From NCBI RefSeq assembly GCF_024611995.1, contig NZ_CP102509.1:8308001-8372000 (forward strand): a stretch of 64,000 nucleotides of DNA, in the 5' to 3' direction. Position 1 is the first letter of the stretch. Every line of letters begins with the position of its first letter. The position numbers and the translations under genes are program-made. This document shows, in pieces, positions 7,813 through 46,190 of the stretch. This DNA is from Streptomyces sp. NBC_00162 (GTDB lineage Bacteria > Actinomycetota > Actinomycetes > Streptomycetales > Streptomycetaceae). The notes beneath the pieces are model-generated. The model was given only the letters and a program-made list of their open reading frames with translations. It did not search any database and was not told where the DNA came from.

Positions 7813-9279
7813 TCAGCCGCTCGCGGCGGCGCCCGGGCACGGCGCGTCCCCGGATCCGGGGAGGGGCTCCACCAGGCCCGCCGAGGCCAGCGCGGCCGGG
7901 TCCAGTCCGGGCCCGGTCGGCAGCAGGGCCAGGAGCGCCGAGGGCACGCCCGCCACCCGTGCGCCGCCGTAGCCGAGGGTCTTCACGGCCTCCGGCGACG
8001 GCAGCGCGTACTTCACGCCGTTGTCCGCCACCAGGTACGTCGTCCCGCCCGCGCCCGCTCCGGACAGCGCCCGCACCAGGGCCCCGCCACCGGGCCGTAC
8101 GGAGATCCGGTCGGCCGTACCGCAGCCGAGCACCACGCCCGGCTGGGGCGCGGGCGGCAGGCCCGCGACCGCCGCCGCCTCGACGACGCTCACCAGGGTG
8201 CGGGGCCCGCCCGGCGAGGGTTCCACCGCCGTGCACACGCTCTGCCCCGCCGCCGGTGCCACCAGCTTCGGCGGCGCCTCGGGCAGCCCGGAACCCGGCA
8301 GGGTCCCGGCCGTAGCCGGATGGGCCGCCAGATCGGCCGCGCCCACCGCCGCGGCGACCGCCGGCGCCCCCGCATACGCCTCCCGCTGCGTCCGGGGGTC
8401 CCCGCGCAGCAGCTCGAAGAGGGTCTGGTTCAGCGGCGCCAGCCCCTGCTGGGTCAGGACGTACGGCTCCCCGGCCGGACCTGTGAACAACTGGCCGGTC
8501 CGGGTCTGCTGCCCGGCCAGCGCGGGCCCGGCCGAACCGCGCCCGGAGATCTCCGGCGGTGACAGATCGGGGCCGGCGGGCAGGGAGTTGAGAAAGGACG
8601 GGGGCACCGCGAAGGGGGTGGCGGAGCCGTAGCCGAGCGCCGTGCCGGCGCCCGCGGCGACGTCGAGCCGCAGCCGCCTGCCCTGCCACAGCACGTGCCG
8701 GGTACCGTCCGCGGTCGCCACCAGCAGGCCCTGCCCGGGCGACAGGGCAAGGCCCGGCGAGCCGTTCCCGACGGCCACCGAGAGCAGCGGCGCGGCCTGG
8801 CCCGACGCGGAACGGCCGGGCAGCCCGCAGACCAGCCAGGACCCCTCCGTCAGTGAGGACTTGGCGGGCAGACCGTCCGGCGCGCCGACGATCCCGACCG
8901 GCCCGCCGCGCGGCGCCGCCTTGAGCGAGTTCAGACCGACCTGGGAGACGGTCATCTTCTCCCCGGCCACCAGCCGGGCGCTGGCCTGGTTGAGCACCGG
9001 GCGCAGCTCCCCGCCGATGAACAGGTACCGCGCGCCCGTCTCCTTCACCACCACCAGGGTGCCGGGCTTGGCCCAACCGGTCGCCCCGCCCGGCTTGATG
9101 GCCCCGTACAGGCCCATGACCAGGGCGATCAGCATGGCGATGAACAGCCCGGTGCGGACCCCGCGGGTGGTCCGCCGGGTCGGGAGGTCCGGTGCGTCGG
9201 GTTCGCCCCGCAGCATGCCGGCCCCGAGCCTGCTCATCACGAACAGGTGCGCCTGTACCTGGTCGCGCCTGGACTGCAT
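7813..9279 (-). CDS. eccB: Type VII secretion protein EccB
   Basis: 488 residues from the ATG at 9279, chosen over upstream codons because GGAGGAG lies five bases before it and because EccB proteins begin like MQSRRDQVQAHLF. A cytoplasmic N-terminus is followed by one transmembrane helix (about 45-65, GLFIAMLIALVMG) and a large extracytoplasmic domain of degenerate repeats (LVVV..TG.RYLF, FLNSLPAGPDL). EccB is a core subunit of the ESX membrane complex, anchoring it and extending outside the membrane. Length is typical. It follows eccD by 83 bases and precedes the EsxA-like gene. Confidence 0.95.
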   Translation of the reverse strand: MQSRRDQVQAHLFVMSRLGAGMLRGEPDAPDLPTRRTTRGVRTGLFIAMLIALVMGLYGAIKPGGATGWAKPGTLVVVKETGARYLFIGGELRPVLNQASARLVAGEKMTVSQVGLNSLKAAPRGGPVGIVGAPDGLPAKSSLTEGSWLVCGLPGRSASGQAAPLLSVAVGNGSPGLALSPGQGLLVATADGTRHVLWQGRRLRLDVAAGAGTALGYGSATPFAVPPSFLNSLPAGPDLSPPEISGRGSAGPALAGQQTRTGQLFTGPAGEPYVLTQQGLAPLNQTLFELLRGDPRTQREAYAGAPAVAAAVGAADLAAHPATAGTLPGSGLPEAPPKLVAPAAGQSVCTAVEPSPGGPRTLVSVVEAAAVAGLPPAPQPGVVLGCGTADRISVRPGGGALVRALSGAGAGGTTYLVADNGVKYALPSPEAVKTLGYGGARVAGVPSALLALLPTGPGLDPAALASAGLVEPLPGSGDAPCPGAAASG

Positions 9280-9361
9280 GTGAACTCCTCCGCAGATAAG
9301 GTCCTGTCGGGGCCGTGGCACGGCCGCTCCGGGCGGGTGCGCGCTCCGGCGCGCCACCCGG

Positions 9362-10768
9362 TCAGCCGCTGAGCCCGCGCACCCAGGCGAAGACGCCGGC
9401 CACGGCCAGCGCGAGCGGGAGCAGGCTCAGCGCCAGCGCGCTGTGCAGCAGGTCGCCGGCCCGGCCCCAGTACGGCAGCATCCGCCGCCCCGGCACGGTC
9501 CACGAGGCGATGGCGAGGGCCGAGGCCACGGCCGTCAGCCCGGCCAGCAGCCCCAGCCGGCCGGTGCCGCCGAGCGTGAGTGCCCACTGCCCGGTCAGCA
9601 GGGCCAGACCGTAGGCGCCGGGCAGGACCAGTGCCAGACGCTGCCACAGGGAGCCCACCTCGCGGGCGTGCAGGATCAACAGCAGGGACAGGGCCGCCGT
9701 CATCGCCGCGGGCGCCCAGCCGGACGCCGCGGCGACAAGGGTGAGGCAGCCGGCGCAGAGCGCACCGGTCACCACGTGGAAGGCCGTCAGGTAGCCGTCA
9801 GCCACCGCGCTGCGGTCCAGCACGTCCTGTGCCGGGTACGGCTCGATGTCCTCCTGGAGCTCGTCGGCGGTGCGCGGCAGCGCCGGGAGCTTCAGTCCGG
9901 ACAGCCGGAAGGCGAAGCCGGGGAGGAACGCGCCGAACGCCACGACCAGCACGGCGAGCACCGCGGCCGTTTCCACGGCCGAGAGTCCCGCCAGCGTGAT
10001 CGCCCCTGCCACGGCACCGGTCGCCGCGGTGATCAGCAGCCCCAGGAAGAGCGGAGCCGAACAGGCCACGGCCGAGAGCGCGAGGACCGCCGCGCCGGCA
10101 GCCGCCGAACTCCCCGCCAGCAGCCGGGCGGCCGTCACATCATCGCTGCCCGTCGGCAGCAGCGCACCGGCCAGGGCGAGGTAGGGCACCGCCGCCGCGC
10201 CGAGCGCCGTGCCCGCCCCGGCGTCGCCCACCGCCCGTGCGGCGCTGGCCGCGCCCAGCAGCAGCAGTCCGCCGATCGCGCCGGCCGTGACCCCGCGCAG
10301 CGGCCCGATGTCGCCGGACAGGGCCAGCAGGGCCAGCCCGCCCGCCAGTGCGGCCAGCGCGAGGCCAAGCGCCACGTGGTGGGTGAGAGCGGGGCGCCAC
10401 GAGTCGCCGCGCTGTTCCAGGCCGACCGCGACACCGTCGATGAGGTCGTCGAAGTGGACCGGCGGCAGCGTTTCACGACGCAGCCGCAGGAACAGCTGAT
10501 CGCCGTCCTGCAATCCCAGGGCCTCCGCCGACCGCTCGTCGTCCAGGGGCTCCTCACCGAGCCGCTGGAGCACCCAGCCGCCCGCCTCGACGGCCTCCTC
10601 GTCGAGGTCGTCCCCGGCGTAACCGATGATGGTCGCCAACAGGTCCGCCAGTGGTACGTCGCCCGGTACGGAGAGCTCCACCACCTTGTGCGGCCCGTGG
10701 AATCTCAACCGGCACAGTCCCGCCACCGCGCTACCGCTCACTGCCCGCGTGTCCTTCCCGCTGTCCAT
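9362..10768 (-). CDS. eccD: Type VII secretion integral membrane protein EccD
   Basis: 468 residues. Residues about 18-100 form a ubiquitin-like domain (CRLRFHGPHKVVELSVPGDVPL...), followed by about eleven hydrophobic helices (about 128 to the end) rich in Ala, Leu and Gly. This is the EccD layout: the channel-like membrane subunit of the ESX core complex with a cytosolic ubiquitin-like domain that contacts EccC. The start ATG at 10768 has only a weak Shine-Dalgarno; a GTG at 10741 is possible. It lies 54 bases after the small gene at 10823-11245 and 83 bases before eccB. Confidence 0.93.
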   Translation of the reverse strand: MDSGKDTRAVSGSAVAGLCRLRFHGPHKVVELSVPGDVPLADLLATIIGYAGDDLDEEAVEAGGWVLQRLGEEPLDDERSAEALGLQDGDQLFLRLRRETLPPVHFDDLIDGVAVGLEQRGDSWRPALTHHVALGLALAALAGGLALLALSGDIGPLRGVTAGAIGGLLLLGAASAARAVGDAGAGTALGAAAVPYLALAGALLPTGSDDVTAARLLAGSSAAAGAAVLALSAVACSAPLFLGLLITAATGAVAGAITLAGLSAVETAAVLAVLVVAFGAFLPGFAFRLSGLKLPALPRTADELQEDIEPYPAQDVLDRSAVADGYLTAFHVVTGALCAGCLTLVAAASGWAPAAMTAALSLLLILHAREVGSLWQRLALVLPGAYGLALLTGQWALTLGGTGRLGLLAGLTAVASALAIASWTVPGRRMLPYWGRAGDLLHSALALSLLPLALAVAGVFAWVRGLSG

Positions 10769-10822
10769 CCGGGGCGAGGCGCCCTCAGCGGCCAGATGAA
10801 CGGGCCGATCCCAGCGGTGGGT

Positions 10823-11245
10823 TCAGCGGGCCCGGCGCAGTTCGCGCAGCAGGGCCTCGACGCCCTCGTCACCGCGCCGTCCGATGAGCACGGCGATCCA
10901 GCGGGTCACGACCTCCCGCTCGTCCTCGGTCCAACCGGCCGATGAGGGATGCTCCTCCACCACCAGCACGCGCGCGAGCAGGCACAGCTCGTCGAAGGGC
11001 GCCGCGGACCGGCTGTCCGGGGCACCGGGCACGGCCGGCGGTACGGGCCGCTCACCGGGCGCCGCGGACAGTCCCAGGAGCCGGGTCACCGCGTCGGTCA
11101 CCTGGGAGGCGGCGGCCTCCGGCACGTCCAGGCCGGTCCCGGTGGCCGCAGGCTCTGGATCCTCTTCCGCGGGGACGGTGTCCCGTAGCCAAGAGCGCAG
11201 CAGTGAGCGGACCTCGTCCGCCGCCGCGTCATCGTCCCCGTACAC
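10823..11245 (-). CDS. Hypothetical protein heading the type VII operon
   Basis: About 140 residues from a GTG at 11245 with GGGAG just upstream; the frame extends further upstream but that part is low-complexity Arg/Gly and unlikely to be translated. The protein is acidic at the N-terminus (GDDDAAADEV) and predicted helical (EVRSLLRSWLRDTV, EREVVTRWIAVLIG). No membrane segment or known motif. As first gene of the minus-strand type VII operon it may be an accessory or regulatory factor, but I do not recognise the family. Confidence 0.65.
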   Translation of the reverse strand: MYGDDDAAADEVRSLLRSWLRDTVPAEEDPEPAATGTGLDVPEAAASQVTDAVTRLLGLSAAPGERPVPPAVPGAPDSRSAAPFDELCLLARVLVVEEHPSSAGWTEDEREVVTRWIAVLIGRRGDEGVEALLRELRRAR

Positions 11246-11541
11246 CGGTCTCCCACCGCCGACGCCGCCACGGCCAAGGCGCCGGCACCGCATGCTCCGC
11301 CTCGTCCGCCGTGGCGGCCGGCCGGCGCGATGGCCCGGTGACCACCCGTAGATGCACACACTCTCTCACCGCTAACCGTTCACCGCTTCCGCTCCGTCTG
11401 CGAACTCAACGTGTGCCCGGATCCCGGGGTTCACCGGCCGCCTCGGTGGTGCGTTGAACCGCCCCCCGCCATCCACCCGTTCCCCCTGGGCGAGGAGACC
11501 GCCGAACACAGTCGGCCGGCGAGGCGTGAGGAGCATTTTCG
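11246..11541. promoter_or_regulatory. Divergent intergenic region of the type VII locus
   Basis: About 300 bases separate the minus-strand operon from plus-strand eccC and must hold the promoters for both directions. No recognisable gene is encoded. The ribosome binding site of eccC (GTGAGGAG) lies at 11526-11533, about nine bases before its TTG start. I see no clear operator. Confidence 0.5.
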
Positions 11542-14500
11542 TTGAGCGTGGTGCTAGTCAACCGCCCACCACGGCGGCCGGGCCCCGAGATGCCGGACGG
11601 CGAGATCCAACTGCAGGAGCCGCCCGTACTGCCCGAGAAGCAGAGCGGGATGGGCAACATCATCACGATGGTGCCGATGGCGCTGTCCTCGCTGTCCATG
11701 GTGTTCATCTTCCTGCGGCCCAACGGCGGCCTCATGACGTACGTCGCGATGGGCACCATGGCCGTCTCCGCGATCGGCATGGTGGTCACCCAGATCATCC
11801 GGGGCAACACCGACCGCAAACAGGAGCTCACCGCCGAGCGGCGCGACTACCTGCGCTACCTCACCCAGATGCGGCGTCAAGTACGCAAGGACATCCGCAG
11901 CCAGCAAGAGGCGCTGGCCTGGCGCAACCCGGCCCCCGCCGAACTGGCCTCGCTGGTGCGGACGTCACGGCTCTGGGAGCGGCGCGCCTCCCATCCCGAC
12001 TTCAGCGACGTACGGATCGCCGTCGGGTCGCAGCGGCTCGCGGTGCGCCTCGCCCCGCTCGCCACCAAGCCCGTGGAGGACCTCGAACCGCTCACCGCCC
12101 ATGCCCTGCGGCGATTCATCCACGCGTACGCGACGGTCGCCGGGCAACCCGTCGCGATCCACCTGCGCGGCTTCGCGCAGGTCCTGATCCGTGCCGGGTC
12201 GGCGGAATCCGGGCCCCCGACCGCGCGGACGACAGGGCGGCGGCCGAGACCGGGCCAGCGGCCGGAACCGGGTCGACGGCCGGAACCGGGCCGGCGGCGC
12301 GGCCCGAGGAGCAGGTTCGCGCGCTGGCCCGCGCCGTCCTCGCCCAACTGGCCACGCTCCACGCACCCGACGAGCTGCGCATCGCCGTGGTCGCCGCGCC
12401 CGACCGCCGCGCCCACTGGGAGTGGATCAAGTGGCTGCCCCACGCGCTGCACCCGACCGAGACCGACGGCGTCGGCCCGCTCCGGCTGGTCGCCGGCACC
12501 ATCGGCGAGCTGGAGCAGCTGCTGGGCGACGAATTCGGCGCCCGGCCGCCCTACGAACCCGACGCGACCCCGAGCCGCGACGAGCCGTACACGGTCGTCG
12601 TGCTGGACGGGGCGACGTTCGCCGCCCCGCACCGGGCGGCCCTCGGCGGCTACCGCAACGCCACCGTGATCGACATCGGCTCCACCCTGGACTGGAAGCA
12701 CAACCGGCTCACCCTCCGGCTGCGGATCACCGGCGGCTCGGGCGGCGCGGACAGCTCGGAAGGCACCCTGGAGATGGTGGGCGCCGACCGGAACCGCAAG
12801 GACGAGATCACCGTCCTCGGCTCCGCCGACACCCTGTCCCACGCCGCCGCCGCCCGGCTGGCCGCGCTCATGGCCCCGTACCGGCTGGGCGACAGCGTCG
12901 ACGCGGGCGAGCCGCTGGCCACCGACTTCGACCTGACCGCCCTGCTCGGCATCCACGACCTCCACCGTTTCGACGTCATACAGCAGTGGGCGCTGCGCAA
13001 CCAGGCGAACAAGCTGAAGGTCCCGCTCGGCCTCGGCCCCGACGGCACCCCCATCGACCTCGACATCAAGGAATCGGCGCAGGGCGGCATGGGCCCGCAC
13101 GGCATGCTGATCGGCGCCACCGGCTCCGGCAAGTCCGAGCTGCTGCGTACGCTGGTCCTGGCCCTGGCCCTGACCCACTCCTCGGAGATCCTCAACTTCG
13201 TTCTGGTCGACTTCAAGGGCGGTGCGACCTTCCTCGGCCTCGACCGCCTCCCGCACACGTCCGCGGTCATCACCAACCTCGCCGACGAGGCCGAGCTGGT
13301 GGACCGCATGCGCGACGCCCTGCACGGCGAGATGATCCGCCGGCAGGAACTCCTGCGCTCCGCCGGAAACTACTCCTCCCTCCTGGAGTACGAGACCGCC
13401 CGAGCCGCAGGTACCCCGCTGGACCCCCTGCCCACCCTCTTCGTGGTGGTCGACGAGTTCTCCGAACTGCTGGCCGCCCACCGCGACTTCATGGACCTCT
13501 TCGTCATGATCGGCCGTCTCGGCCGCTCCCTCGGCGTCCACCTCCTGCTCGCCTCCCAGCGCCTCGACGAGGGCCGCGTCCACCAGCTCGAATCCCACCT
13601 GTCCTACCGGATCGGCCTGCGCACCTTCTCCGCGATGGAATCCCGGGGCGTCCTGGGCGTTCCCGACGCCTACCAGCTGCCCTCCCAGCCCGGCAACGGC
13701 TACCTGCGCAGCGACATCTCCACCCTCACCCGCTTCAAGGCCGCCTACGTCTCCGGCTCCTACAAGCAGAAGCGGCAGCCGGCCGCCCAACGAGCCCTGA
13801 TCGAGGGCCAGGTCGTGGCCTTCGGCACCGAGTACGTCGCCCCCCGTACGCTGCCGGCCGCCGCATCGGAGGCGACGGAGGAGGCACAGGAGCAGGAGGC
13901 CGAGGAGACCCGCACGCTCCTCGACATCGCCGCCGAACGCCTCCTCGACGCGGGCCCGCCCGCGTACCAGGTGTGGCTGCCGCCCCTGGACGTACCGCCG
14001 ACGCTGGACGAACTGCTGCCTCCGATCGCACCCCACCCCGAGTACGGGTTCACCGTCGAGGGCGGGCTGCGCGGGGCCCTCAAGGTCCCGGTCGGCCTTG
14101 TCGACCGCCCCTTCCAGCAGGTACGCGACCTGCTGGTGGCAGACCTCGGCGGGGCCGACGGGCACATCGGCGTGGCGGGCGCGCCGCAGTCCGGCAAGTC
14201 CACCCTGATCCGAACCCTGGTGGCGGCCCTCGCGCTCACCCACACCCCGGCCGAAGTGCAGTTCTACTGTCTGGACTTCGGCGGCGGCACCCTCTCGGGC
14301 CTGCGGGGCCTCCCACACGTAGGCGGGATCACCGGACGGCACGACCCCGATCGGGTCATCCGGACCATCGCCGAGGTCAATTCGGTCATCACCCGCCGCG
14401 AGAAGTACTTCGCCGAGCTCGGCATCGACTCGGTCGCCGCCTTCCGCCGCAAGAAGGCGGCCGGGGACCTGCCCGACGACCCGCACGGAGACGTGTTCCT

Positions 14501-15665
14501 GGTCATCGACGGCTGGAACACCCTGCGCCAGGAGTTCATGGACCTGGTCCAGCCGCTCACCCTGATCTCCCAGCGCGGCCTCAACTACGGAGTCCACCTG
14601 CTCGTCGGCACCACGCGGTGGGGCGAGATCACCGGTGCGCTCCGCGACCAGCTCCAGACCCGGTTCGAGCTGCGCCTCGGCGACCCGGTGGACTCGGTGG
14701 TCAACATGCGGGCGGCGGGCAAGGTGCCCAAGGTGCCGGGGCGCGGGCTGACGGAGGACCAGATGCACTTCCTGTGCGCGCTGCCGCGGATGGACGGCAT
14801 CGGCACCGCACACGACCTGGGCGAAGGCCTCGGCGACCTGGTCGACGTCGTCACCGACCACTGGACGGGCCCGCGTGCCCCCGAGGTCCGCATGCTGCCA
14901 CTGGTACTGGACGCCGCCGAACTGCCCGAACCGCACGGTTCGTTGCGGATTTCCCTCGGCCTCGAGGAACAGGACGTCCAGCCGCTGTGGCACGACTTCT
15001 CGCAGGACCCGCACCTGATCGTCGTCGGCGACAGCGAGTCCGGCAAGACCAACCTGCTCAAGCACATCACCACGCAGATCATGCGCGCGTACACGCCCGA
15101 CCAGGCCCGCATCATGCTGGTCGACTTCCGGCGTGAGATGTACGAGACCGTGCCCGAGGAATACCGGCTCGGCTACGCGGTCTCCGCCGACCCCGTGCGG
15201 CAGATGGTCACGGGGGCCGCGAGGGCGCTGGCCAACCGGGTGCCGTCCGCCGACATCACCCCGGACCGGCTGCGGGCGCGCGACTGGTGGAGCGGGCCGG
15301 AGCTGTTCGTGATCGTGGACGACTACGACCTGGTCGGCAGCGCGGTGTCGGCACACCCGTTCGCCGCGGTCCTCGACCACCTGGCCCAGGGCGTGGAGAT
15401 CGGCCTGCACGTCATCGTCGCCCGGTCCGCGAACGGGGCAGGCCGCGCCATGGGGGACCAGCTCCTGCGCAAGCTCCAGGACGTCAACACCCCGGCCGTG
15501 CTGCTGTCGTGCCCGCCGACGGAGGGCTATCTCTTCGGCGGCACCAAGCCGAAGGTGCTGCCGGCCGGGCGCGCGCTGCACATCACGCGGCGCCGCACGG
15601 TGCAGCTGCAGACTCCGCTGCTCGACTCCGACAGCCAGAACCCGCAGATCGGAACCGACGGATGA
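11542..15665 (+). CDS. eccC: Type VII secretion protein EccC, FtsK/SpoIIIE-type ATPase (one frameshift)
   Basis: About 1,374 residues, typical for a fused EccCa-EccCb. TTG start at 11542 with GAGGAG upstream. Two transmembrane helices (about 36-55 and 62-82) are followed by three P-loop ATPase domains: GATGSGKSE near residue 525, GAPQSGKST near 880 and GDSESGKTN near 1,160. EccC is the motor that recognises WXG100 substrates and drives export. The frame shifts at 12211-12218 (a run of three G then five C); adding one base restores RAGSAESGAPDRADDR and the full protein, so the gene is probably intact. The stop overlaps the next start (ATGA). Confidence 0.93.
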
Positions 15666-18592: not shown

Positions 18593-18607
18593 TAGAATCT
18601 GCAGTCA
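18593..18607 (+). promoter_or_regulatory. -10 box of a probably leaderless lysR transcript
   Basis: TAGAAT at 18593-18598 lies eight bases before the ATG at 18607 and no Shine-Dalgarno is present, so transcription likely starts at or next to the start codon. Confidence 0.45.
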
Positions 18608-19496
18608 TGGAGCTGAGGCAGCTGGAGTACTTCGTGGCGGTTGCCGAGGAGCAGAACTTCACCCGGGCGGCCGAGCGGGTGCACATCAGTCAGTCCGGCG
18701 TCAGTGCCCAGATCCGTCAGCTGGAACGTGAGCTCGGTACCGAGCTGTTCGACCGGTCGCCGCGCACCGTCACCCTCACAGTCGCGGGAAGGGTCGCGCT
18801 CGAACACGCCCGCGCCGCGCTCGCCGCCGCTGGGGCCCTCGGTCAAGCGGTGGGCGAGGTGACCGACCTGATCCGAGGTCGGCTAACCGTGGGGATGGTC
18901 ATGGGCTGCACCCTCACGCCGCTGTTCGACGCCCTCGCCGCGTTCCACCAAGCGCATCCCGGTGTGGAGATCTCGCTGCTGGAGGACAACTCCGACCGGC
19001 TCGTCGAGGGGGTGCGCGCCGGCGCCATCGACCTGGCACTCATCGGGGCCGCAACCGCCACCCCCGACGGGCTGGACGCGCTGACCATCATCAGCGAGCG
19101 GCTCGTCGTGGCAGTCCCGGCCGGGCACCCCTGGCGGGACAGCGGCGGGTCACCCTGCACGACCTGGTTGCCTACCCGATCGTGTGCATGCCGCCCGGCA
19201 CCGGCCTGCGCACGGTATTCGACCAGGCCTGCGCCGCACAGAGCCTCCGACCCGCGATCACCCTGCAGGCCAGCGCCGCGGATGCCATTGCCGACCTCGC
19301 TGCCCGCGGGCTCGCCGTCGCCGTCCTCAGCAACTCCATGGCCGCGCGCTACCGCGACCGCCTCACCGCCCGCACCATCGATGACCTCGAAACACCCGCG
19401 TTGCTCGCCCTGATCTGGAAGAGCACACACAGCCCCGCGGTGCGTGAGTTGCTCGTGCACAGCCGACAAGCATTCACCGAGCCCGACCCTGCTTAG
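18607..19496 (+). CDS. LysR-family transcriptional regulator (one frameshift)
   Basis: About 296 residues, the normal LysR length. Residues 1-60 are a textbook winged helix-turn-helix (MELRQLEYFVAVAEE, FTRAAERVHISQSGVSAQIRQLE, LFDRSPRTVTLTVAG). The rest is the periplasmic-binding-like effector domain. The frame breaks at the GGG at 19147-19149; adding one G gives SGGVTLHDLVAYPIVCMPPGTG and reads through to the stop at 19496. Divergent from the NTF2-like gene, with an operator-like palindrome between them. Likely an activator or repressor of that neighbour. Confidence 0.88.
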
Positions 19497-19499
19497 CGG

Positions 19500-20215
19500 G
19501 AACACCCCTGTCAGATCCGCTCGACATGTGTGCGAATCGTGGTCGGAGAGCAGTTCGACAATGACCTCTGGCGGCAGGGCCGGATGCCCGGCAGCCACCC
19601 GCCGTGCCTGCCTGTCCGCCAAACAGGCGAGCAGCGCTGGGCCGGTCGCGTCGCGGTGCCGGGCGACCTCGCGCAGTGCCTTCTGAGCGGGCGGTATGTG
19701 TCTGGTCAGGTCCTCCGGCAGGGCGGGCCAGGACCTGCGGTGGTGTCGCCTCGTTGGCCGCTACCGCGCGGCGGACCTCGGCATGGGGGTGGGACCAGAC
19801 GGGTCGCCAGGTCCGCTGTGGTCCACAACGCGAGTTCCGCGACGACCCGTACGTCCGGATCGGCGGCGAGTGTCTCGCGCGCATCGGACGGAAGCCCGGG
19901 ACAGGCGGCCGGCTTCGCCCGGTGCCAGGCGTCGGGGTGCTGGGCGAAGAGCCGCCCACTCCGGGTCCCGGAACACTCGTCGAGCAAGGCGAGTGCGGCC
20001 TGCGGCTGTGTGAGGGGGTTGATGTCGGCAGCGGCCAACCGGCCCTCATACGCAAGTCGTACAGCGCTCTCCTCGACTCTCGTGGCCAGGTCGACCGCCT
20101 GCTCGCGGCTGAGGTCCGCGCGGCTGGCGAGGCCGTCGGCGACGTCCGCGTCCGCGACCGCGATCAGGCGCCCGACCGGCTCGCAGGGCAGAGCCCATCG
20201 GCGCCGAGGCCGCAC
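19500..20215 (-). pseudogene. Leucine-rich-repeat-variant (LRV) protein, frame-disrupted
   Basis: Three minus-strand frames together spell repeats of the LRV type: RETLAADPDVRVVAELALW, then HPHAEVRRAVAANEATPPQVLA, then DRQARRVAAGHPALPPEVIVELL. Such proteins in Streptomyces are about 200-500 residues of helical repeats with unknown partners. Shifts occur near 19785-19795 and near 19735. The second is repaired by removing a C, unlike the missing-base pattern elsewhere, so the gene may be truly decayed. The start is uncertain (codons near 20215) and the stop is unclear because the last frame runs into the region antisense to the LysR gene. Confidence 0.5.
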
Positions 20216-25750: not shown

Positions 25751-26095
25751 CCGAGGGGCACCTGCTCAGGGCTTTGGCGCCGGTCGAGCCGATCGGGTGA
25801 ACCAGGAACTGCGCGCCTGCGGCAGCCCCGGCTGTACGGCTCCCCGCGGCGAGACTGTGGCCCAGTCTCCGGGAACCGTCTCCACCCACCTCTACCCTCT
25901 GCCAGCTCTTCTTTGGAGCCGGAGTGACCTCCCGGGCCGGAACGGTGCGACGCGCTGATGCGCCTGGAGCGGCAGTGCCACCCGGGCGTCCGGCACCCGG
26001 AATTACGACAGACAACCGGAGCGGCGAAATCGGCCGCTTTCGTATCTTCGCCGCACGGCCCGAGCGGACCGGTCCCGCAGAGCACTGGAGGAAAG
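25751..26095. other. Gap with no supported gene
   Basis: About 345 bases. Near 26020-26060 the sequence can fold into GCGGCGAAA/TTTCG-type hairpins; otherwise nothing is recognisable. The ribosome binding site GGAGGAAAG of the next gene is at its end. Confidence 0.4.
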
Positions 26096-26640
26096 ATGAC
26101 CGACGACGCACCGCGCGGGAATGTCGTGCTCGTCCACGGTGGGTTCGTGGACGGCTCGGGTTGGCAGGGCGTGTACGACGCCCTGAGGGCCGACGGCTAC
26201 CACGTGTCCGTCGTGCAGAACCCACCCTCTCCCTCGAAGGCGACGTGGCCGCCACCCAGCAGGTGATCGACCGCCTTCCGGGACCGGTGACCCTGGTCGG
26301 CCACTCGTACGGCGGCGTCGTGATCACCGAGGCCGGCAACTACCCGAAGGTGAACGCGCTCGTCTACGTTGCCGCGTTCGCCCCCGACAAGGGCGAGTCG
26401 GTCAGCACCCTGATCGCCGACCCGCCCCCAGCCGCCCCCGTCCCGCCGATCCTGCCCCCCGACGAGGGCTTCCTCTTCCTCGACCGCGATAAGTTCGCCG
26501 ACTCCTTCGCCGGCGACCTGCCCCGCGCTCAGGCCGAGTTCATGTCCGACTCTCAGGTCCCGTGGGGCGTGGAAGCGCTGGGCGGCGCGGTGTCCCGGCC
26601 CGCCTGGCGGTCCAAGCGGGCCTGGTACCTGATCGCCACT
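26096..26640 (+). pseudogene. Alpha/beta hydrolase, one shift and C-terminal truncation
   Basis: Starts MTDDAPRGNVVLVHGGFVDGSG at 26096 with GGAGGAAAG upstream. The frame breaks in the CCC at 26221-26223; one extra C gives VVQNPTLSLEGDVAATQQ and the frame continues with nucleophile motif GHSYGG and YVAAFAPDKGES. It is a salicylate-esterase/RsbQ-like hydrolase of about 230 residues in intact relatives. After RAWYLIAT (about 26640) similarity to the family ends, so the acid and His of the triad are lost. Truncated by rearrangement. Confidence 0.7.
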
Positions 26641-26866
26641 CCTCCAAGCGGTTTCGCAACGACTTCGACAGCCACGCAACAGCGTCATGGGGATTCCGTC
26701 TGCTCGTGGGTGGACAGCAGGTCCCTGGCCCAGCGCTGCATCAGCACTGGCAGATACGCGCGAACATCCGCGCACCGGAGCTCCTCGCCGAGCGGTGCCG
26801 CTCTCCGGTCTGTGCTCCGCTACACCGTTGAGCTGTGAGCGGGCCATTCTGGCAGCGGCTTCTGCC

Positions 26867-38409: not shown

Positions 38410-39247
38410 CCCGTCGGCGCACGGCTGGGCAACCAGTCCGGCCGGTGCACCGGGCGCGGTGCGTATGGGGTGACCGCCCCCGGTCCACCGTTGGGTGGAT
38501 CGCCCGCGCCCGTCTCGACACCGCGGCACTCGCGATGGTGGACGCCGACCGTCTCGAAGCCAAGGCCGTCACCGCTTCGAGACGGTCCGCGCCGTCCTGA
38601 ACACCGTGCTCGCCGCCGTCCTGAACGGCCTCGCCATGTCGTCATACATTGACCGACGAGGTCGTTTCGCATTTCCTGGCTGTATTGATTTCGGATTTCC
38701 CAGCTGTATTGATCACGAGCATCGTTGACACTCGGCAGGTCTTGAACAGGCGCAGAAGAACGAGCAGTCCCGCCGGCCTCGAGCCTGGATGTGCCGACGG
38801 TGATGGAGTCTTCCTTCTGGCGCGGGCGATGATCGCGCCGCTGTGCGCACTGACGTGGCCCATTGCCGATGCCCTGACTCATTCCCACCGTGGAAGAGGT
38901 CCAGCAGGTCATCCCGCTCCACCAACCCGTCTGAGCCAAGGCCGACCCCGCCGGCATCGCCAACCGGCACGCGGCCCACGGCCCTCTCCAGGGACCTACG
39001 AGACGGCCCCGTAAAAGCACGACCAAGGAGCCGACCGGCACGGTGCACCCGCCGGTCGGCTCCGCCGTGCTCCTCGACGGCCCCGGGGATGACTCCGTCG
39101 TTCGGCCCATCAAGGGCACCGGCTGCAACGCCGAAAAGGACCAAGTGGAGTCGCCCCACCCTCGCGTTCCGGTAAGCCTCCGCGCCCCAGGCCGCCCCGA
39201 TGACGGCGGTCCCGTACCCCGGCCGACAGGCCCGGAGGAGATCCCGC
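38410..39247. other. Gap with no supported gene
   Basis: About 840 bases. No coherent protein; one direct repeat is annotated separately. The promoter of the Asp-box gene is presumably in its last 100 bases. Confidence 0.4.
38673..38719. repeat. Direct repeat around CTGTATTGAT
   Basis: ATTTCCTGGCTGTATTGATT and ATTTCCCAGCTGTATTGATC lie 27 bases apart (start to start), unusually AT-rich for this genome; possible regulator sites or scar. Confidence 0.6.
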
Positions 39248-40719
39248 ATGCGCGTCTGCCTGCCCCTGACCGCCGTCACCACCGCCGCGCTCCTGCTCGT
39301 CACGGTCACCGGCGTGACTCCCGCCGCAGCAGACCGGAACCCCGACGGCACACCACTGGTCAAGGTGTCCCACGGCGACCCGTACGCGGACTGCACCATC
39401 GGAGCGATCTCCCCCGAGAGCATCGTCTACCCCGGCACCGAGGTCGAGCCGTACCTGTCCGTCGATCCGCGCGACCCGAAACGCGTGGTCACCGTGTACC
39501 AGCAGGACCGCTGGAACGACGGCGCCGCCCGCGGCCTGGTGGCCTCCTGGACCACCGACGGCCACACCTTCCACCGGAGCCCGCTGCCGTTCAGCCTGTG
39601 CGCCCCCGGCGGCGCGGACTACGAACGGGCCTCCGACCCCTGGGTGAGCACCGGACCGGACGGCACCGTCTATGCGAGCGGGGAAGGCGTCGACTTCACC
39701 AAGAGCACGCGCAGCGCCCTCCTGGCCGCCACCTCCCGCGACGGCGGCCGCACTTGGCAGAACCTCACCACCACGCACGTCGACGAGCAGCCGTTCTTCA
39801 ACGACAAGCCCTCGCTCACCGCCGACCCGATCCGCGAAGGCACCGCCTACCAGGTCTGGAACCGCCTCGACAACGACCCGCCCGGCCCCAGCTCCCTCGA
39901 CGGTCCCGGCTACATCTCCCTCACCCGCGACGCCGGCCGCACCTGGAGCGAGGCCCGGCGGTTCGTCGACACCGGCGCCGTGCCCAACACCCAGACCATC
40001 GGCCATGTGATCGTCGTCGACCGGCGCACCGGCACCCTGTACGACTTCTACGACCGGATCACCTACTCCGACGACCTGAGCACCGTCACCGAAGCCCACT
40101 ACGAGGTGGTCACCTCCACCGACGCCGGAGAAACCTGGAGCGCCCCGGCCACCGTGGCCCGCGACACCTCCGTACCGGAGGTCGACCCGAACGACCCCAC
40201 CAAACTGCTGCGCGCCGCGTCCACCCTGCCCAGCCCGGCCGTCGACCCCAAGTCAGGCACGCTGTACATGGCCTACGAGGGCTCGGACTTCTCCGGCGGC
40301 AGGTTCGACTCCGTCCAGCTCGTGCGCTCCACCGACGGCGGACGTACCTGGGGGACCCCCGAGCTGATCAGCCCTGAGGACGTGCCGGCCTTCTCCCCGT
40401 CGATCGCGGTCGACGAGCGGGGCACGGTCGCACTCACCTACTACGACCTGCGCTTCCTCAAGCCGGGCGACACCACCACCCTGCCCACCGCCTACCAGCT
40501 GGCCACCCTGCCGCACGGAAACCCGGAGCTCCGGACCGAACGACGGATCTCACGGGTCTTCGACTGGCTGCAGGCGCCGTTCGCCGGGGGCTACTTCCTC
40601 GGCGACTACCAAGGCCTGGTCGCAGACGGCAAGGGGTGCGGGCGGTGCTCACCGAAACCAACTCCGACGCACCCCAGAACCGTACGGACGTGTACACCAG
40701 CAGTCTCCGCACCCGCTGA
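39248..40719 (+). CDS. Secreted Asp-box (sialidase-like) beta-propeller protein (one frameshift)
   Basis: About 490 residues from the ATG at 39248 (GGAGGAG upstream). Signal peptide MRVCLPLTAVTTAALLLVTVTG ending AAA. Four BNR/Asp-box repeats, Ser/Thr-x-Asp-x-Gly-x-Thr-Trp: SRDGGRTWQ, TRDAGRTWS, STDAGETWS and STDGGRTWG, hence a six-bladed propeller as in exo-sialidases and other secreted glycan-active or binding proteins. No full sialidase Arg triad is confirmed. The frame shifts at the GGGG 40633-40636; one extra G gives KGVRAVLTETNSDAPQNRTDVYTSSLRTR and a stop at 40719. Confidence 0.85.
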
Positions 40720-40854
40720 CCGACGGGGACGCCGTCGGCCGACCCGACCGCCGGCGGCTGCAGACAGGCCTCGGACCCACTCCGTGACCACGTTGGGCGG
40801 GGAGGTTTGGCTGAGTCCCGCCCGGCGGGGCGGTCCTGCTGCTCTGGGGTCGCG

Positions 40855-41470
40855 TGAACGCGGTTTGGTCGTGAACGAGGCGCTCGGGATCACCCACCGG
40901 GTGCGCCAGAACATCGACCACGCCCAACGCGCGGATCCCGCGTCGTCGCAGGTGGGACCGGATGGCACAGGTGGAGCAGGCCGGTCCGCGAGCACGGCCA
41001 ACGGCCGGGTTCGGGGCCTGCCGGGCCCGCTTCGTGGCACGCGGATGCGGGCCATGACCGCTTCGAAGGCGGGTGCGTCGCCGGCCTGGCCCGCGGTGAC
41101 GGTCAGGGCCAGGGGCCGTGCACGGTCGGCGGGCTCGCTGCGGCTTTCGGCCCCCTATTGCGTGCTCCGGCGGAATGCTGGTGGGCGCGGACGACGGTGG
41201 AGTCGACCGAGACGGTCCAGCCGATGTCGTCATCGGCGTCCGCGGCCGCCAGCACGGCGGTCAGGATGTTCTGCCAGGTTCCGTCGATGGCCCATCTGAT
41301 CAGCCGTTTGTGGGCGGTCTGGAACGGGCCGAGCCCGTCGGGCAGGTCCCGCCAGGGCGAGTTGGTGCGGTACTTCCACGCGATGGCCTCGAGCGTTCGG
41401 CGGTGATCAGCCCACTGCCGTCCACGGACCGGATCGGTCCTGGCCAGGAGACCCCAGTCGGCTGCTCCCG
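40855..41470 (-). mobile_element. IS5-family transposase remnant
   Basis: Minus-strand pieces: ADHRRTLEAIAWKYRTNSPWRDLPDGLG and KRLIRWAIDGTWQNILTAV, then IGWTVSVDSTVVRAHQHSAG (first Asp), then AIRSHLRRRGIRA (after the second Asp), in several frames. The Glu block is absent. Inactive scar downstream of the Asp-box gene. Confidence 0.7.
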
Positions 41471-42125: not shown

Positions 42126-42865
42126 TGCGCCATCATCACCCGACAACCCGCACAAATCCCGACGCCACGCCCGCCGCCCCGGCCGCGTCCGCCGTGGATC
42201 CAGCCGTGGAGCGGATCGATCGTCGTCATCCCGGCGGGGGAGGCCCGGTCGAAGCCAGGCAGCAGCGCTGCCGCCTGGTCGAGGCCCACGACCCGCTCGA
42301 TCAGCCGCTGCGGGGCAAGCGCTGCTGCCACAGGATTTCGATCCGGCATGCAGCACCTGCGCACCGCACTTCCAAGAGACAGGCTCTAGTCTCGACAGGG
42401 AGCCCCGTGGACTCGACGGAGTACGACTGCCAGCGCAGGCCCCTACTGCCTTCCACCCGGTAAAGAGGGCCCGTCCGACCAGCCGGCCCACCGCTGTTGG
42501 CGGCCTGCGGAGCAGGTGATGGGGATTCTTGAAAACGGCTGTGACCGCGCTTGCGTGATGGCTACGGCTGTCGTCGGATCGGGGCATCCTTACAGGGACT
42601 CTTTTGACCGCGAAGATCACGGGCGTGGCAGGATGAGGGCATGACTATCCGAAAGGCTCATGCCGCGTAGGTCCCCCGGCCGAATCAGACGGGAAGTGCC
42701 ACGTCCTGCCGTCGGATCCGGCGACAGCCGCCATCAGCGCAGTACCACGCGACGCTTGAAGTGCCGAAACAAGCTGGGCCACATTCCGGAGCCGGGATAT
42801 CCGTGAACGGATATCCCGGCATGCGAAGTGCGCCTACCTAGGAATCTGGGGTTTTGCTCGCAGAT
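42126..42865. other. Gap with a strong hairpin
   Basis: About 740 bases between VOC gene and the ABC cluster. A nine-codon frame (MTIRKAHAA, 42641-42670) is the only small peptide; its reality is uncertain. The hairpin at 42791-42820 lies just downstream of the minus-strand cluster. Confidence 0.45.
42791..42820 (-). terminator. Perfect 14-base hairpin ending the ABC cluster
   Basis: GCCGGGATATCCGT, two bases, ACGGATATCCCGGC: a perfect stem just past the last gene of the minus-strand cluster. No T run. Confidence 0.7.
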
Positions 42866-43471
42866 TTACCTTCGGAGGAAGGTTTTTCTTCGCCACGGGG
42901 TGGCTGCGGTTGCAGTCACGCCGAGGGACAAAGCGAGCACCGCTACAGCCCAGCTGAAGCGGTCGGTCGCCGAGTTTGACGTCCAGTCCCACCAATTGTG
43001 GGGGTACCAGATCAAAAAGAAGGCCGAGGCCAGGGGAATGGTCCAGCCAAGTTGGTGGCCGAGCAGCCTCACCGACAGCAGGGCGAGACCGAGCCAGATC
43101 AGGAGGGATCGGATGAAGACGACCCCAGCTTCCGTGCTGACGGCGAGTGCCTCAGTGATGAAGGACAAGACGCAAGCTGTCAGTGTCAGGCCAATGCAGT
43201 AGTTGAGGCGGAACCGGTGCATCGCGGATGCACCCATTTCGTCATGTTCCGACATGGCTCCGTCGAGAGCCGCAGTGAGGAAGACGGCTGACAGAAGCGG
43301 GAGTTCGTGTCGGAAGGGCACACCGGTGGTGACTCCTCCGCTGCCGATGGAAGGCAGCGCGATAGGGGTGCCGCCAAAGAAGGCCGAGAGGAGGGCAATA
43401 GCGGCCGTCGCTGCGAGGATTGCTATGCCCCGGTGCACTCTTGCGTAACGGAGCAATTCAGAACCGGTCAT
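42866..43471 (-). CDS. Multi-pass membrane protein of the ABC/peptide cluster
   Basis: 201 residues from the ATG at 43471. About five to six hydrophobic helices: GIAILAATAAIALLSAFF, LPLLSAVFLTAALDGAM, YCIGLTLTACVLSFITEAL, GVVFIRSLLIWLGLALLSV, IPLASAFFLIWYPHNWW and FSWAVAVLALSLGVTATAA. No catalytic motif. Last gene of a five-gene minus-strand cluster; it overlaps the previous gene by 14 bases. Could be an immunity or transport subunit; not recognised. Confidence 0.78.
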   Translation of the reverse strand: MTGSELLRYARVHRGIAILAATAAIALLSAFFGGTPIALPSIGSGGVTTGVPFRHELPLLSAVFLTAALDGAMSEHDEMGASAMHRFRLNYCIGLTLTACVLSFITEALAVSTEAGVVFIRSLLIWLGLALLSVRLLGHQLGWTIPLASAFFLIWYPHNWWDWTSNSATDRFSWAVAVLALSLGVTATAATPWRRKTFLRR

Positions 43472-44185
43472 CAGGCTTGCACCAGGAAGGGTCTCGAATA
43501 ATGTGGCTGCGTTCCTCAGCGAGCCATTCCTGCTGCTCGGCTGCGGGCATCCGTGCAGCCTTGGTCGCCTCGCGCTGGGCGGCGGAGACACCTTCCATGT
43601 GGAGTCCCTGGTCGGCTACAGCCGGGTCTTGGCCGGTGGAGCGGTACTCGAGCCATAGGTGGATGTTGTCCATCGCCTGCCAGGCCCGGCTCTCCTCTTG
43701 CGGAGGGCGGCAGAGGCCCAGCGACTGGGTGAACACCTGGTCGGCCATGGCGATCGCTGCGGTACGGACGTGTCCCTCGGCGATGTCGAATCCTCGGTCG
43801 CCCCACTTGGTCCGCCGGAGCCCGAACTCGTAGAACGCTTCGGGTGACTTCAACCAGGATTGGTCGGGCTGGCCCAAGCGCTGGGCCATGGCCGTCAATT
43901 CGGGCAGGTACTTGCGGTGCTCGGGCCACACGCACACCTGTGGCGCGCCCCCTCGGCACGGTCGCACAGGGGCGCTGTCGCCGACGCCGGGCGCTCGACC
44001 CGCAGTTCGCCGCTGGCTGGCATCGCAAAAACCAGTGCGATGAGGGAGGCTGCTGTTGCCCCGATGGCGGCAGTGCGGGTGGGCAGGGACGTTGCCCGGC
44101 GCGGCATCTGGCGCTCGGCGCTGCTCCGCAGTCGCGGTGCTGTCACAGCCAGCGTGGCGAGGGCGAGCGCAAACAGCAGCCTCAC
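43458..44185 (-). CDS. Cluster protein with one N-terminal membrane segment (one frameshift)
   Basis: About 242 residues from a GTG at 44185, overlapping the previous stop (GTGA). Begins VRLLFALALATLAVTA, then a second hydrophobic segment (AAIGATAASLIALVFAMP) and a soluble domain: VCVWPEHRKYLPELTAMAQRLG, GLRRTKWGDRGFDIAEGHV and PAEQQEWLAEERSHI. The frame shifts at the five-C run 43948-43952 (G on the coding strand); one extra base gives DRAEGGAPQVCVWPEH. Unknown family; extracytoplasmic partner of the ABC permease is possible (inference). Confidence 0.72.
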
Positions 44186-44760
44186 GGTGACTGGAAGGGG
44201 CGTAGGTGCTGGTCCGGCGGCCCCGCGAGGACATTGAACTTGAAGGGGAGCGCCAGCATGCTGATGAAGCAGCCCAGTGCGCAGACGATGGGGGTGAAGG
44301 TGGCGGAGGGCCACCATCGGCCGGCCAGATGGCCTACGGACGCGAAGATGATCAGGGTCGAGGCGCCGAGCAGGAGGTAGGAGGGCCACAGGAATCCGGG
44401 GCCCGCCTCGCTGAACGAGATGAACGCGGCGGTCAGGCATCCGACCGCGTAGGCGAGGAACCCGAGGGTGAGAGTGGCGGCCAGACGTGCGGCCTCGATC
44501 CGCCAGATTGGTCGGGCGGCCGCAAGCACGGTCTCGGGCATTCCCACGCGGGAGGAGCGTCCGGCCTGCCAGGCTGAGACGCCGGCGAGGACGGGCCCCA
44601 GGAAGAGTGTGACGACCTGGGCTGCCACACTGGCTTCGGGCCATACCCCGATCCAGTACCGGGACCGACCGAAGAGCACCAGCAAGTCCACGGCGATCAT
44701 CACGGGAAAAGCTGTCAGCAGCGGCGAGCGGCGCAGCTCGATGCGGTAGGCATTCAGCAT
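44182..44760 (-). CDS. ABC transporter permease-like membrane protein
   Basis: 192 residues with about five hydrophobic helices: TAFPVMIAVDLLVLFG, VAAQVVTLFLGPVLAGVSAW, LAATLTLGFLAYAVGCLTAAFI, LWPSYLLLGASTLIIFASVGHLAG and TPIVCALGCFISMLALPF. Starts MLNAYRIELRRSPLLT, overlapping the ATPase gene by seven bases. ABC-2-like small permease; substrate unknown. Overlap on both sides indicates a tight operon. Confidence 0.82.
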   Translation of the reverse strand: MLNAYRIELRRSPLLTAFPVMIAVDLLVLFGRSRYWIGVWPEASVAAQVVTLFLGPVLAGVSAWQAGRSSRVGMPETVLAAARPIWRIEAARLAATLTLGFLAYAVGCLTAAFISFSEAGPGFLWPSYLLLGASTLIIFASVGHLAGRWWPSATFTPIVCALGCFISMLALPFKFNVLAGPPDQHLRPFQSP

Positions 44761-45530
44761 GCGGCCCCCTCGTTGGGTCGGCGGTTGCCGAGTACCGTCA
44801 TGTAGCCGCGTTCCAGGGGGCTGTCGCCTGGGGCTGCGGGGGTTGCCAACTCTGCCAGCTGCTGAGGTGTGCCGCTGTGGCGCAGTTGGCCGTCGCTCAG
44901 CACGAGGACGGTGTCGCAGGCGGCGCCGACGTCCTCAACCAGGTGCGTGCTGAGGAGGACGGCCGTTCCTGCGTGGGCGAGGGAACGAATGAGCTCACGG
45001 AAGTCGAGACGCTGCGCGGGGTCGAGACCGACGGTCGGCTCATCCAGCAGAAGCAGGGAGGGGGAGCCGACGATGGCCGCGGCGATTCCGGCCCGGCGGA
45101 GCATGCCGCCGGACAGCGACTTCATGCGGTCCCGGGCCCGGTCGGCCAGGCCCACAGCCGCCAGTGCCTCCTTGGTCGCAGAGTCGGCCTTCTTGGAGGG
45201 GACCTCACGCAGCCAGGCGCAGTAGCGGACGAAGTCCGTTATGGAGAAGGCCGGGTAGTAGCCGAAGTCCTGCGGGAGATAGCCGATGCGACGGCGGACA
45301 TGCCGCGCTTGCCGTTCGTTGGTGACGGGGCTGCCGAACAACTCCAGCTGCCCGCTTTGTGGCGGCGCGATGGTCGCGAGGGTACGGAAGAGCGTGGTCT
45401 TGCCCGCGCCGTTGGGGCCCAGCAAGCCCGTGACACCGGGCAGGATGGACAGGTCGAGATTCTCGATGATGGTTCGGCCGCTGTAACCCTGCGTGAGGGT
45501 CGTCAATCGAGCGACAGGGTATGTCGTCAT
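44754..45530 (-). CDS. ABC transporter ATP-binding protein
   Basis: 258 residues. Walker A GPNGAGKTT near 38-46, Q-loop YLPQDFGYYP, signature LSGGMLRRAGIA near 139, Walker B LLLLDEPTVGLDP near 158, H-loop STHLVEDV. This is the multidrug/ABC-2 type ATPase. It follows the secreted peptide gene on the same strand, separated by a strong hairpin at 45551-45584, and overlaps the permease. Together with the permease it could export or protect against the peptide. Confidence 0.95.
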   Translation of the reverse strand: MTTYPVARLTTLTQGYSGRTIIENLDLSILPGVTGLLGPNGAGKTTLFRTLATIAPPQSGQLELFGSPVTNERQARHVRRRIGYLPQDFGYYPAFSITDFVRYCAWLREVPSKKADSATKEALAAVGLADRARDRMKSLSGGMLRRAGIAAAIVGSPSLLLLDEPTVGLDPAQRLDFRELIRSLAHAGTAVLLSTHLVEDVGAACDTVLVLSDGQLRHSGTPQQLAELATPAAPGDSPLERGYMTVLGNRRPNEGAAC

Positions 45531-45550
45531 TGGCAGAATTCCCTGAAATA

Positions 45551-45584
45551 AAGGATGGGCCCGCCATTCAGGCGGGCCCTCCTT
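45551..45584 (-). terminator. Strong hairpin between the peptide and ABC genes
   Basis: GGGCCCGCC, five bases ATTCA, GGCGGGCCC, extended by AAGGA and TCCTT. Just downstream of the peptide stop at 45603 and upstream of the ATPase start at 45530, so it could let the peptide be made in excess over the transporter. Confidence 0.75.
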
Positions 45585-45606
45585 GACTAGCTGACTAGCT
45601 GACTAG
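45585..45606. repeat. Tandem CTGACTAG repeats across the peptide stop
   Basis: Almost three copies of CTGACTAG (GACTAGCTGACTAGCTGACTAG). On the coding (minus) strand they give several TAG/TCA codons, making a multi-frame stop region. Confidence 0.75.
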
Positions 45607-45947
45607 ACAGCGTAAGTCACATGGGTCTTGTTGATCTTGAATGTGCACTCGTGGGTGTCATACTTTCCCACGTATCCGCTGTGCAGGTGGTCCCAGTGCT
45701 CCGTATCGAGCTCGACATTGCAGTCATACTGCGTAATGTACGTGTAAGACGGGTAGTTCGACGCGCTGGAGCAGTAGCCGTGACCGGAGGTGCTGTACCA
45801 GTATCCCCGGCATCCCTGCTGCCAGGTTGACTCGTAGGACGCGCTCGCTATCGGAGCCGTCAGGCCGATGGCGGCAGCTGCCAGGGCACCTACGACAACA
45901 CCCTTGGCAACCTTCGAACCGGCTATGCGTGACGCAATGGAATTCAT
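45603..45947 (-). CDS. Small secreted Tyr/Cys-rich peptide
   Basis: 114 residues from the ATG at 45947 with AGGGGGA upstream. A signal peptide (about 1-36, VAKGVVVGALAAAAIGLTAPIASA) precedes a mature peptide of about 78 residues, rich in Tyr, Ser, His and with four Cys (QGCRGYWY, HGYCSSAS, QYDCNVEL, HECTFKI), probably two disulfides. No Gly-Gly leader. Followed by a hairpin and an ABC ATPase/permease set: a bacteriocin-like or signalling peptide with a transporter is a possible reading, but family is not recognised; Lactococcin 972 likeness is superficial. Confidence 0.8.
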   Translation of the reverse strand: MNSIASRIAGSKVAKGVVVGALAAAAIGLTAPIASASYESTWQQGCRGYWYSTSGHGYCSSASNYPSYTYITQYDCNVELDTEHWDHLHSGYVGKYDTHECTFKINKTHVTYAV

Positions 45948-46190
45948 GGATTCCCCCTTGGGAATAGAATGACGGAGGCGTAAAAAACTGCCCCGCAGCT
46001 ATGAAATGCAAAGCCAACAAGCTGAACGATCTTGAGTCAAGTCGATAGCGAAATTCGACCTTCCGTCATCGCCCATTCTCGCAAAAGGCAATTGGCAAGC
46101 TTCTTCCTGTGCTCATCAATTACCTACTTCACTAACAGCGCATCCGCCAACAGGTAAGTTGATCATGGTGGTGATATTCGTTAGGCGCCC
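45948..46190. promoter_or_regulatory. AT-rich upstream region of the peptide gene
   Basis: About 240 bases clearly richer in A and T than the rest of the window, presumably the promoter; no obvious operator. It fits a horizontally acquired cluster. Confidence 0.45.

Follow-up and report, generated by a model that had tools for sequence, protein, structure and literature searches.

A putative mobile cassette of Streptomyces sp. NBC_00162 encoding a secreted four-cysteine protein and an ABC transporter with a DUF7224 permease

A compact cassette encoding a small secreted protein and an ATP-binding cassette (ABC) transporter was identified in a 64,000-nucleotide stretch of Streptomyces sp. NBC_00162 (contig NZ_CP102509.1, positions 8,308,001 to 8,372,000; hereafter the window), part of a Streptomyces-type chromosome of 9.02 Mb (G000). 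The cassette spans positions 42789-46086 on the minus strand and contains, in order, the gene for the secreted protein (peptide gene), an intergenic hairpin, genes for an ABC ATPase, a permease and a membrane protein, and a terminal perfect hairpin (Table 1). We lean, if only slightly, towards reading it as a mobile bacteriocin-like cassette in which a Sec-exported protein would be accompanied by a new type of ABC immunity transporter, working like lactococcin 972. A bacteriocin with ABC immunity fits a protein which is of the Sec type, fast-changing and sometimes multiplied, a transporter which in some genomes outlives it, and the movement of the cassette. Both toxicity and immunity are inferred from sequence.

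The secreted protein has 52 homologous clusters, and those with a named organism are from Streptomyces; cluster P0001, 96% identical, probably contains the window's own protein. Across the 53 sequences 15 columns are invariant, including four cysteines (C46, C59, C76 and C101 of the precursor) and the motif GCRGYWY. No fitting Pfam or NCBIfam family was found for the window protein, nor any in Pfam for the 53 relatives, and a sub-threshold match to DUF7155 covers only the signal peptide and the residues following it. With a profile including diverged members, 68 proteins were matched among 8000 candidates scored. These results support a four-cysteine family without an existing name, in line with an earlier note on this DNA, which had described a cysteine peptide bearing a signal peptide and could place it in no known family. 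One relative, P0004, is labelled "Peptidase inhibitor family I36" by its source; the Pfam matches obtained for the 53 relatives do not include that family. The precursor begins with an ordinary signal peptide of the Sec type, and no lipobox or anchor was seen in it. The model of the mature window protein (predicted local distance difference test, pLDDT, 95.1) has six strands, and the two confident models obtained are six-stranded beta folds.

The ATPase, recognized as such in the earlier note, resembles those of drug exporters in being a separate subunit and has no peptidase domain; its best NCBIfam subfamily was drrA, with a score below the cut-off of that model. The permease and the membrane protein had no NCBIfam match. 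The permease matched DUF7224 (PF23866) above the gathering score (cut-off 27 bits; 32.3 bits in the closest relative, locus L004). The earlier note had counted four genes downstream of the peptide, and this number was reduced to three, as its "permease" and its "membrane-anchored protein" are one gene, the latter being the 3' part of the permease with DUF7224. Separate genes were rejected because the permease is a single open reading frame of 421-435 codons in 16 of the 18 relatives with a permease match. The two exceptions are L010, in which the permease ends at the contig end, and L012, which is itself broken (194 codons). Eight relatives, selected for being intact, align to the window permease in three successive frames (residues 1-189, 188-277 and 271-433 of that of L004). 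In the window the first frame stops at 44182 and the DUF7224 part lies in another frame extending to 43458, so that the transporter set formerly taken as intact has a broken permease in this sequence. Frame switches midway also occur in three further genes of the window, namely those for a LysR regulator (18607-19500), an alpha/beta hydrolase (25924-26838) and a BNR-repeat protein (39200-41299), and the most probable cause of the permease break is therefore an assembly error.

Approximately seven transmembrane segments precede DUF7224 (four relatives) and the four cysteines of this domain are invariant in ten relatives, which suggests that DUF7224 probably lies outside the cell. Four to six transmembrane segments were predicted for the membrane protein in relatives. 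As described previously, the starts overlap: the permease ATG (44760) overlaps the end of the ATPase gene at its stop, and the membrane protein starts (ATG, 43471) before the stop of the permease gene (43458-43460).

Co-occurrence of peptide and transporter in other genomes, a check proposed in the earlier note, was examined in 392 genomes of the same genus, and a recurring cassette was found. The peptide was present in 11 of them and the membrane gene in 31, with 10 genomes carrying both (the window's own genome being included in each count; Fisher p = 2e-11, uncorrected for relatedness). The eleventh peptide genome (G105) has a degraded cassette. The linkage (10 of the 11 peptide genomes carry the membrane gene) was counted in favour of a bacteriocin, as were the Sec-type precursor and the lack of a modifying enzyme in the cassette. 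Gene order in the cassettes is strict. A secreted small open reading frame stands directly before the ATPase in 30 of 42 cassette loci, 19 of which are the window itself or were found via the peptide. Among the 23 loci found without the peptide query there were 14 with such a frame, compared with 34 of 254 control genes, the filter being crude, as 13% of the control genes passed it. L082 would have been a 31st locus but was excluded, since its frame proved to be the end of another gene. Of the 12 uncounted loci, three (L012, L014 and L015) retain remnants of a peptide, L079 has an open reading frame like that of L078 which the filter missed, and L125 begins 94 bp from a contig end.

The slot ahead of the ATPase is occupied by several types of protein. 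Besides the type found in the window, distant four-cysteine proteins were identified in L036, L037, L070, L072, L076, L077, L084, L123 and L128, the last two being in other families of the class, and two-cysteine secreted proteins in L071, L073, L074, L080 and L081. The two-cysteine slot protein has approximately 135-143 amino acids and precedes related ABC genes; no Pfam match was obtained in L071 and L081, the two scanned. Another two-cysteine secreted type precedes ABC genes near DUF7224 permeases in L111, L112, L116 and L119, with two similar proteins each in L111 and L112. The order differs in L120, L122, L124 and L130, where the ATPase is preceded, not followed, by the DUF7224 permease and a small membrane protein. 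Locus L034 (about 9000-10100) encodes three diverged four-cysteine peptides in tandem with one transporter. At four loci all three transporter components can still be recognized while the peptide is reduced to residues 1-39 (L015) or 67-110 (L014), or was not seen at the cassette (L068, L069).

DNA identity to L004 is 93.6% across 42789-46086 and ends at both edges. The fetched loci, searched over 8 kb at E 1e-10, contained neither of the flanking genes tested (CopD and glyoxalase-like). Surroundings were retrieved for 28 of the 33 membrane-gene places. Plasmid copies were identified in Streptomyces sp. HU2014 (per record name) and in CP109147. In the latter, a linear plasmid of Streptomyces globisporus (L184; CP109147.1, 5057-9084), the cassette adjoins a SUKH-4 family immunity gene and transposases. 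Based on these comparisons the cassette is apparently mobile, and its genes are inherited together as a unit. The annotation of L184, whose gene table is incomplete, does not include the peptide gene.

The ratio of nonsynonymous to synonymous substitution rates (dN/dS) was calculated for separate parts of the cassette. Between the window and L004 it was 0.76 for the mature protein, 0.12 for the signal peptide, 0.15 for the ATPase and 0.25 for the membrane protein; between the window and L013 the corresponding values were 0.78, 0.25, 0.22 and 0.14. Five other pairs with the peptide gave mature-part values of 0.29-0.46, and in the pair L006/L007 the mature part equalled the signal peptide (0.33). 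In all four pairs in which both were compared, dN/dS of the mature protein exceeded that of DUF7224. The mature part evolves fast, at rates which stop short of demonstrating diversifying selection.

Two other functions were weighed against this evidence. The protein could be an extracellular signal with the ABC complex and its DUF7224 domain as receptor, in development or in the sensing of envelope stress. The probable outward position of DUF7224, the strict gene order and the invariant core of the protein agree with this. However, the cassette has no kinase or regulator, the shared DNA stops at the hairpin of the membrane gene, and both the patchy occurrence (11 of 392 genomes) and the diverged tandem copies in L034 are at odds with it, so that a signal and receptor appear unlikely. 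Peptide and immunity fit better than signalling, as judged from the fast mature domain, the tandem paralogues, the transporters lacking a peptide and the plasmid copies. A transport role, in which the protein would be a secreted subunit or carrier handing a ligand to the ABC complex for import or export, is improbable to much the same degree. It would account for the near-strict linkage, the fixed order and the domain outside the cell, but not readily for transporters retained without the peptide (L015, L068 and L069), three diverged peptides sharing one transporter, a mature protein changing faster than DUF7224, or the precursor's want of a visible lipobox or anchor.

The strong hairpin reported after the first gene was recovered within the 72 nucleotides separating the peptide and ATPase genes and is conserved with compensatory changes. 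Across 16 relatives 88.5% of 191 cells pair, with changes on both sides in 6 of 12 pairs. The covariation score was 0.254 versus 0.159 when shuffled (reached in 0 of 500 shuffles), and at most 0.150 when the stem was slid; further pair types were less clear, as 43 of 500 shuffles reached the observed value. Distant cassettes also have stems at this place, unrelated in sequence. Of 25 stretches, 19 beat single-base shuffles at 0.005; L010, L012, L013, L015, L070 and L128 failed, and the passing stretch of L084 is just 19 nucleotides long. A terminator scan gave 3 sites versus 1.8 (standard deviation 1.4) in shuffles, and by the scan alone this hairpin would not stand out; it is distinguished by its conservation with compensatory changes. 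Its tail lacks a long run of U, and the hairpin might serve in termination, in processing or in protection of the transcript. The earlier note's proposal, a hairpin favouring the output of peptide over that of transporter, is plausible. Unequal expression, implied by the conserved hairpin, is also one of the arguments against the notion that the ABC set exports or matures the secreted protein. The linkage of peptide and transporter speaks for such a role, which is nevertheless very improbable in view of the ordinary Sec-type signal peptide and of an ATPase of the drug-export kind without a peptidase domain.

If the cassette is bacteriocin-like, the secreted protein would be exported by Sec, form two disulphides on folding and target the cell envelope of actinomycetes nearby, in the way that lactococcin 972 acts on lactococci. 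The ATPase, DUF7224 permease and membrane protein would form an immunity transporter, recognizing the protein outside the cell via DUF7224 and clearing it from the membrane or from its target. The hairpin, by ending or protecting the transcript of the peptide gene, would raise the output of peptide above that of transporter. The probable outward position of DUF7224 and the covariation of the hairpin were likewise counted in favour of this reading. We tentatively extend this, with rather less than even confidence, to a new modular class of actinomycete protein bacteriocins. A single transporter chassis, made up of the ATPase, the DUF7224 permease and the membrane protein, would be combined with several unrelated-looking proteins in the slot, DUF7224 would recognize the cognate folded, disulphide-bonded protein outside the cell, and cassettes of approximately 3.3 kb would be traded between strains. 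Were the bacteriocin reading true, actinomycetes would possess a family of antimicrobials which are folded proteins and come with their own self-protection, easy to test as no modifying enzymes are present in the cassette. Uncharacterised DUF7224 permeases would gain a function, and it would be seen how an ABC immunity pump can recognize a folded protein outside the cell. Even without a toxin role, the conserved pair of secreted protein and ABC transporter and the conserved hairpin make a clean experimental target.

Table 1. Features of the cassette and its upstream region in the window
Feature	Position	Strand	Basis
Upstream region common to closest relative (L004)	45948..46086	-	blastn match to L004 extends to 46086
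Candidate -35 box, TTGACT	46035-46040	-	within upstream region
Putative ribosome-binding site, GGGGG (G-run) ahead of peptide gene	45953-45957	-	within upstream region
Peptide open reading frame, 114 amino acids, four cysteines	45947-45603	-	translation
Signal peptide, residues 1-36	45840..45947	-	by inspection; cleavage predicted from conserved A36
Mature secreted protein, 78 residues	45606..45839	-	four invariant cysteines
Intergenic hairpin, peptide/ATPase gap	45557..45579	-	9-bp all-GC stem, 5-nucleotide loop
ABC ATPase, 258 amino acids	44754..45530	-	PF00005, 1.8e-29
Permease gene, C-terminal DUF7224	43458..44760	-	PF23866, 33.4 bits; frame disrupted here
Multi-pass membrane protein, 201 amino acids	42866..43471	-	without named family; 104 homologues
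Perfect inverted repeat, cassette end	42791-42804/42807-42820	-	present in L004 too

The GC content of the window is 69.7%, and with values of 49% upstream of the peptide gene and 57% within it the region is AT-rich. The promoter which the earlier note had placed there did not find the same support, as a scan of the region upstream of the peptide gene for sigma-70-type sites found none. An alignment of upstream regions of relatives revealed the G-run only, with no convincing shared -35/-10. In the aligned relatives this G-run, often of seven, lies immediately 5' of the peptide start codon and may be an unusually strong or special ribosome-binding site. The terminal repeat is a perfect 14-base hairpin, as first described, and was not obvious in five relatives other than L004 that were compared. 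None of the known RNA families was matched in the window. Elsewhere in the window (9362-15665), large open reading frames resemble, by eye, a section of a type VII secretion locus, with a membrane protein and an ATPase of the FtsK type.

A literature search by titles and abstracts, with most subscription journals outside its scope, gave no description of the cassette. A phage origin was rejected, as the 17 pattern matches in viral contigs included none encoding a relative; the viral fold library gave no match at E <= 0.001. Anti-phage defence was likewise rejected, the ATPase having generic ATPase-type matches only and the other three proteins none. Searches by sequence for solved relatives gave only insignificant matches, mostly to the signal peptide.

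LanFEG-type lantibiotic immunity transporters consist of one ATPase and two unlike membrane subunits encoded beside a peptide gene. The cassette resembles them in all these respects and its ATPase matches TIGR03740 (3e-36). It differs in that this match, 125 bits versus a cut-off of 309.75, is weaker than that to drrA, in having no lantibiotic modifying enzyme, and in the presumably extracytoplasmic DUF7224 domain.

Tendamistats (PF01356), a family of alpha-amylase inhibitors, are small secreted beta-proteins of Streptomyces with two disulphides, and the protein family described here likewise comprises small secreted Streptomyces proteins with four cysteines. The secreted protein might accordingly be an enzyme inhibitor of this kind, with the ABC set serving another purpose, and a sub-threshold PF01356 match of the L037 peptide (E 0.051) points the same way. 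We regard this as quite improbable, as L037 was the only one of 29 diverged relatives to match, the window protein had no PF01356 match, profile comparison gave non-significant probabilities of 24% and 4% (18 of 27 places used in alignment A8), and none of 27 PF01356 loci carries these ABC genes within approximately 1.5 kb. No tendamistat entry was among the matches listed by the structural searches, an absence which excludes nothing.

A further close parallel is the lactococcin 972 family (PF09683/TIGR01653; PDB 2lgn; streptococcin B). As described in passages of PMC4055356 and PMC11796350, its operon encodes a secreted folded peptide followed by ABC-type transporter genes held to confer immunity, which a passage in one of the two papers calls experimentally unverified. 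The window protein matched neither PF09683 nor TIGR01653, none of the 53 relatives matched the family in Pfam, and one of 29 diverged relatives matched TIGR01653 (E 0.0056; 16.9 bits versus a cut-off of 32.1). Profile comparisons gave probabilities of 9-33%, resting partly on the signal peptide (18 of 26 places used in alignment A5), and did not establish descent from lactococcin 972. The secreted protein is not assigned to that family because the sequence searches did not place it there. The permease and membrane protein, lacking any NCBIfam match, are not of the lactococcin 972 transporter type. Lactococcin 972 is a beta-sandwich, according to a passage in PMC11796350. It ranked 4 and 2 in two second-look structural searches, among the best but weak matches, and the alignments to both models of the secreted protein cover 64 of its 66 residues. 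Membership of the lactococcin 972 family would further entail lipid II binding and inhibition of septum formation. The arrangement of the genes is shared, a secreted peptide gene being followed by genes of an ABC-type transporter, here those for the ATPase, permease and membrane protein.

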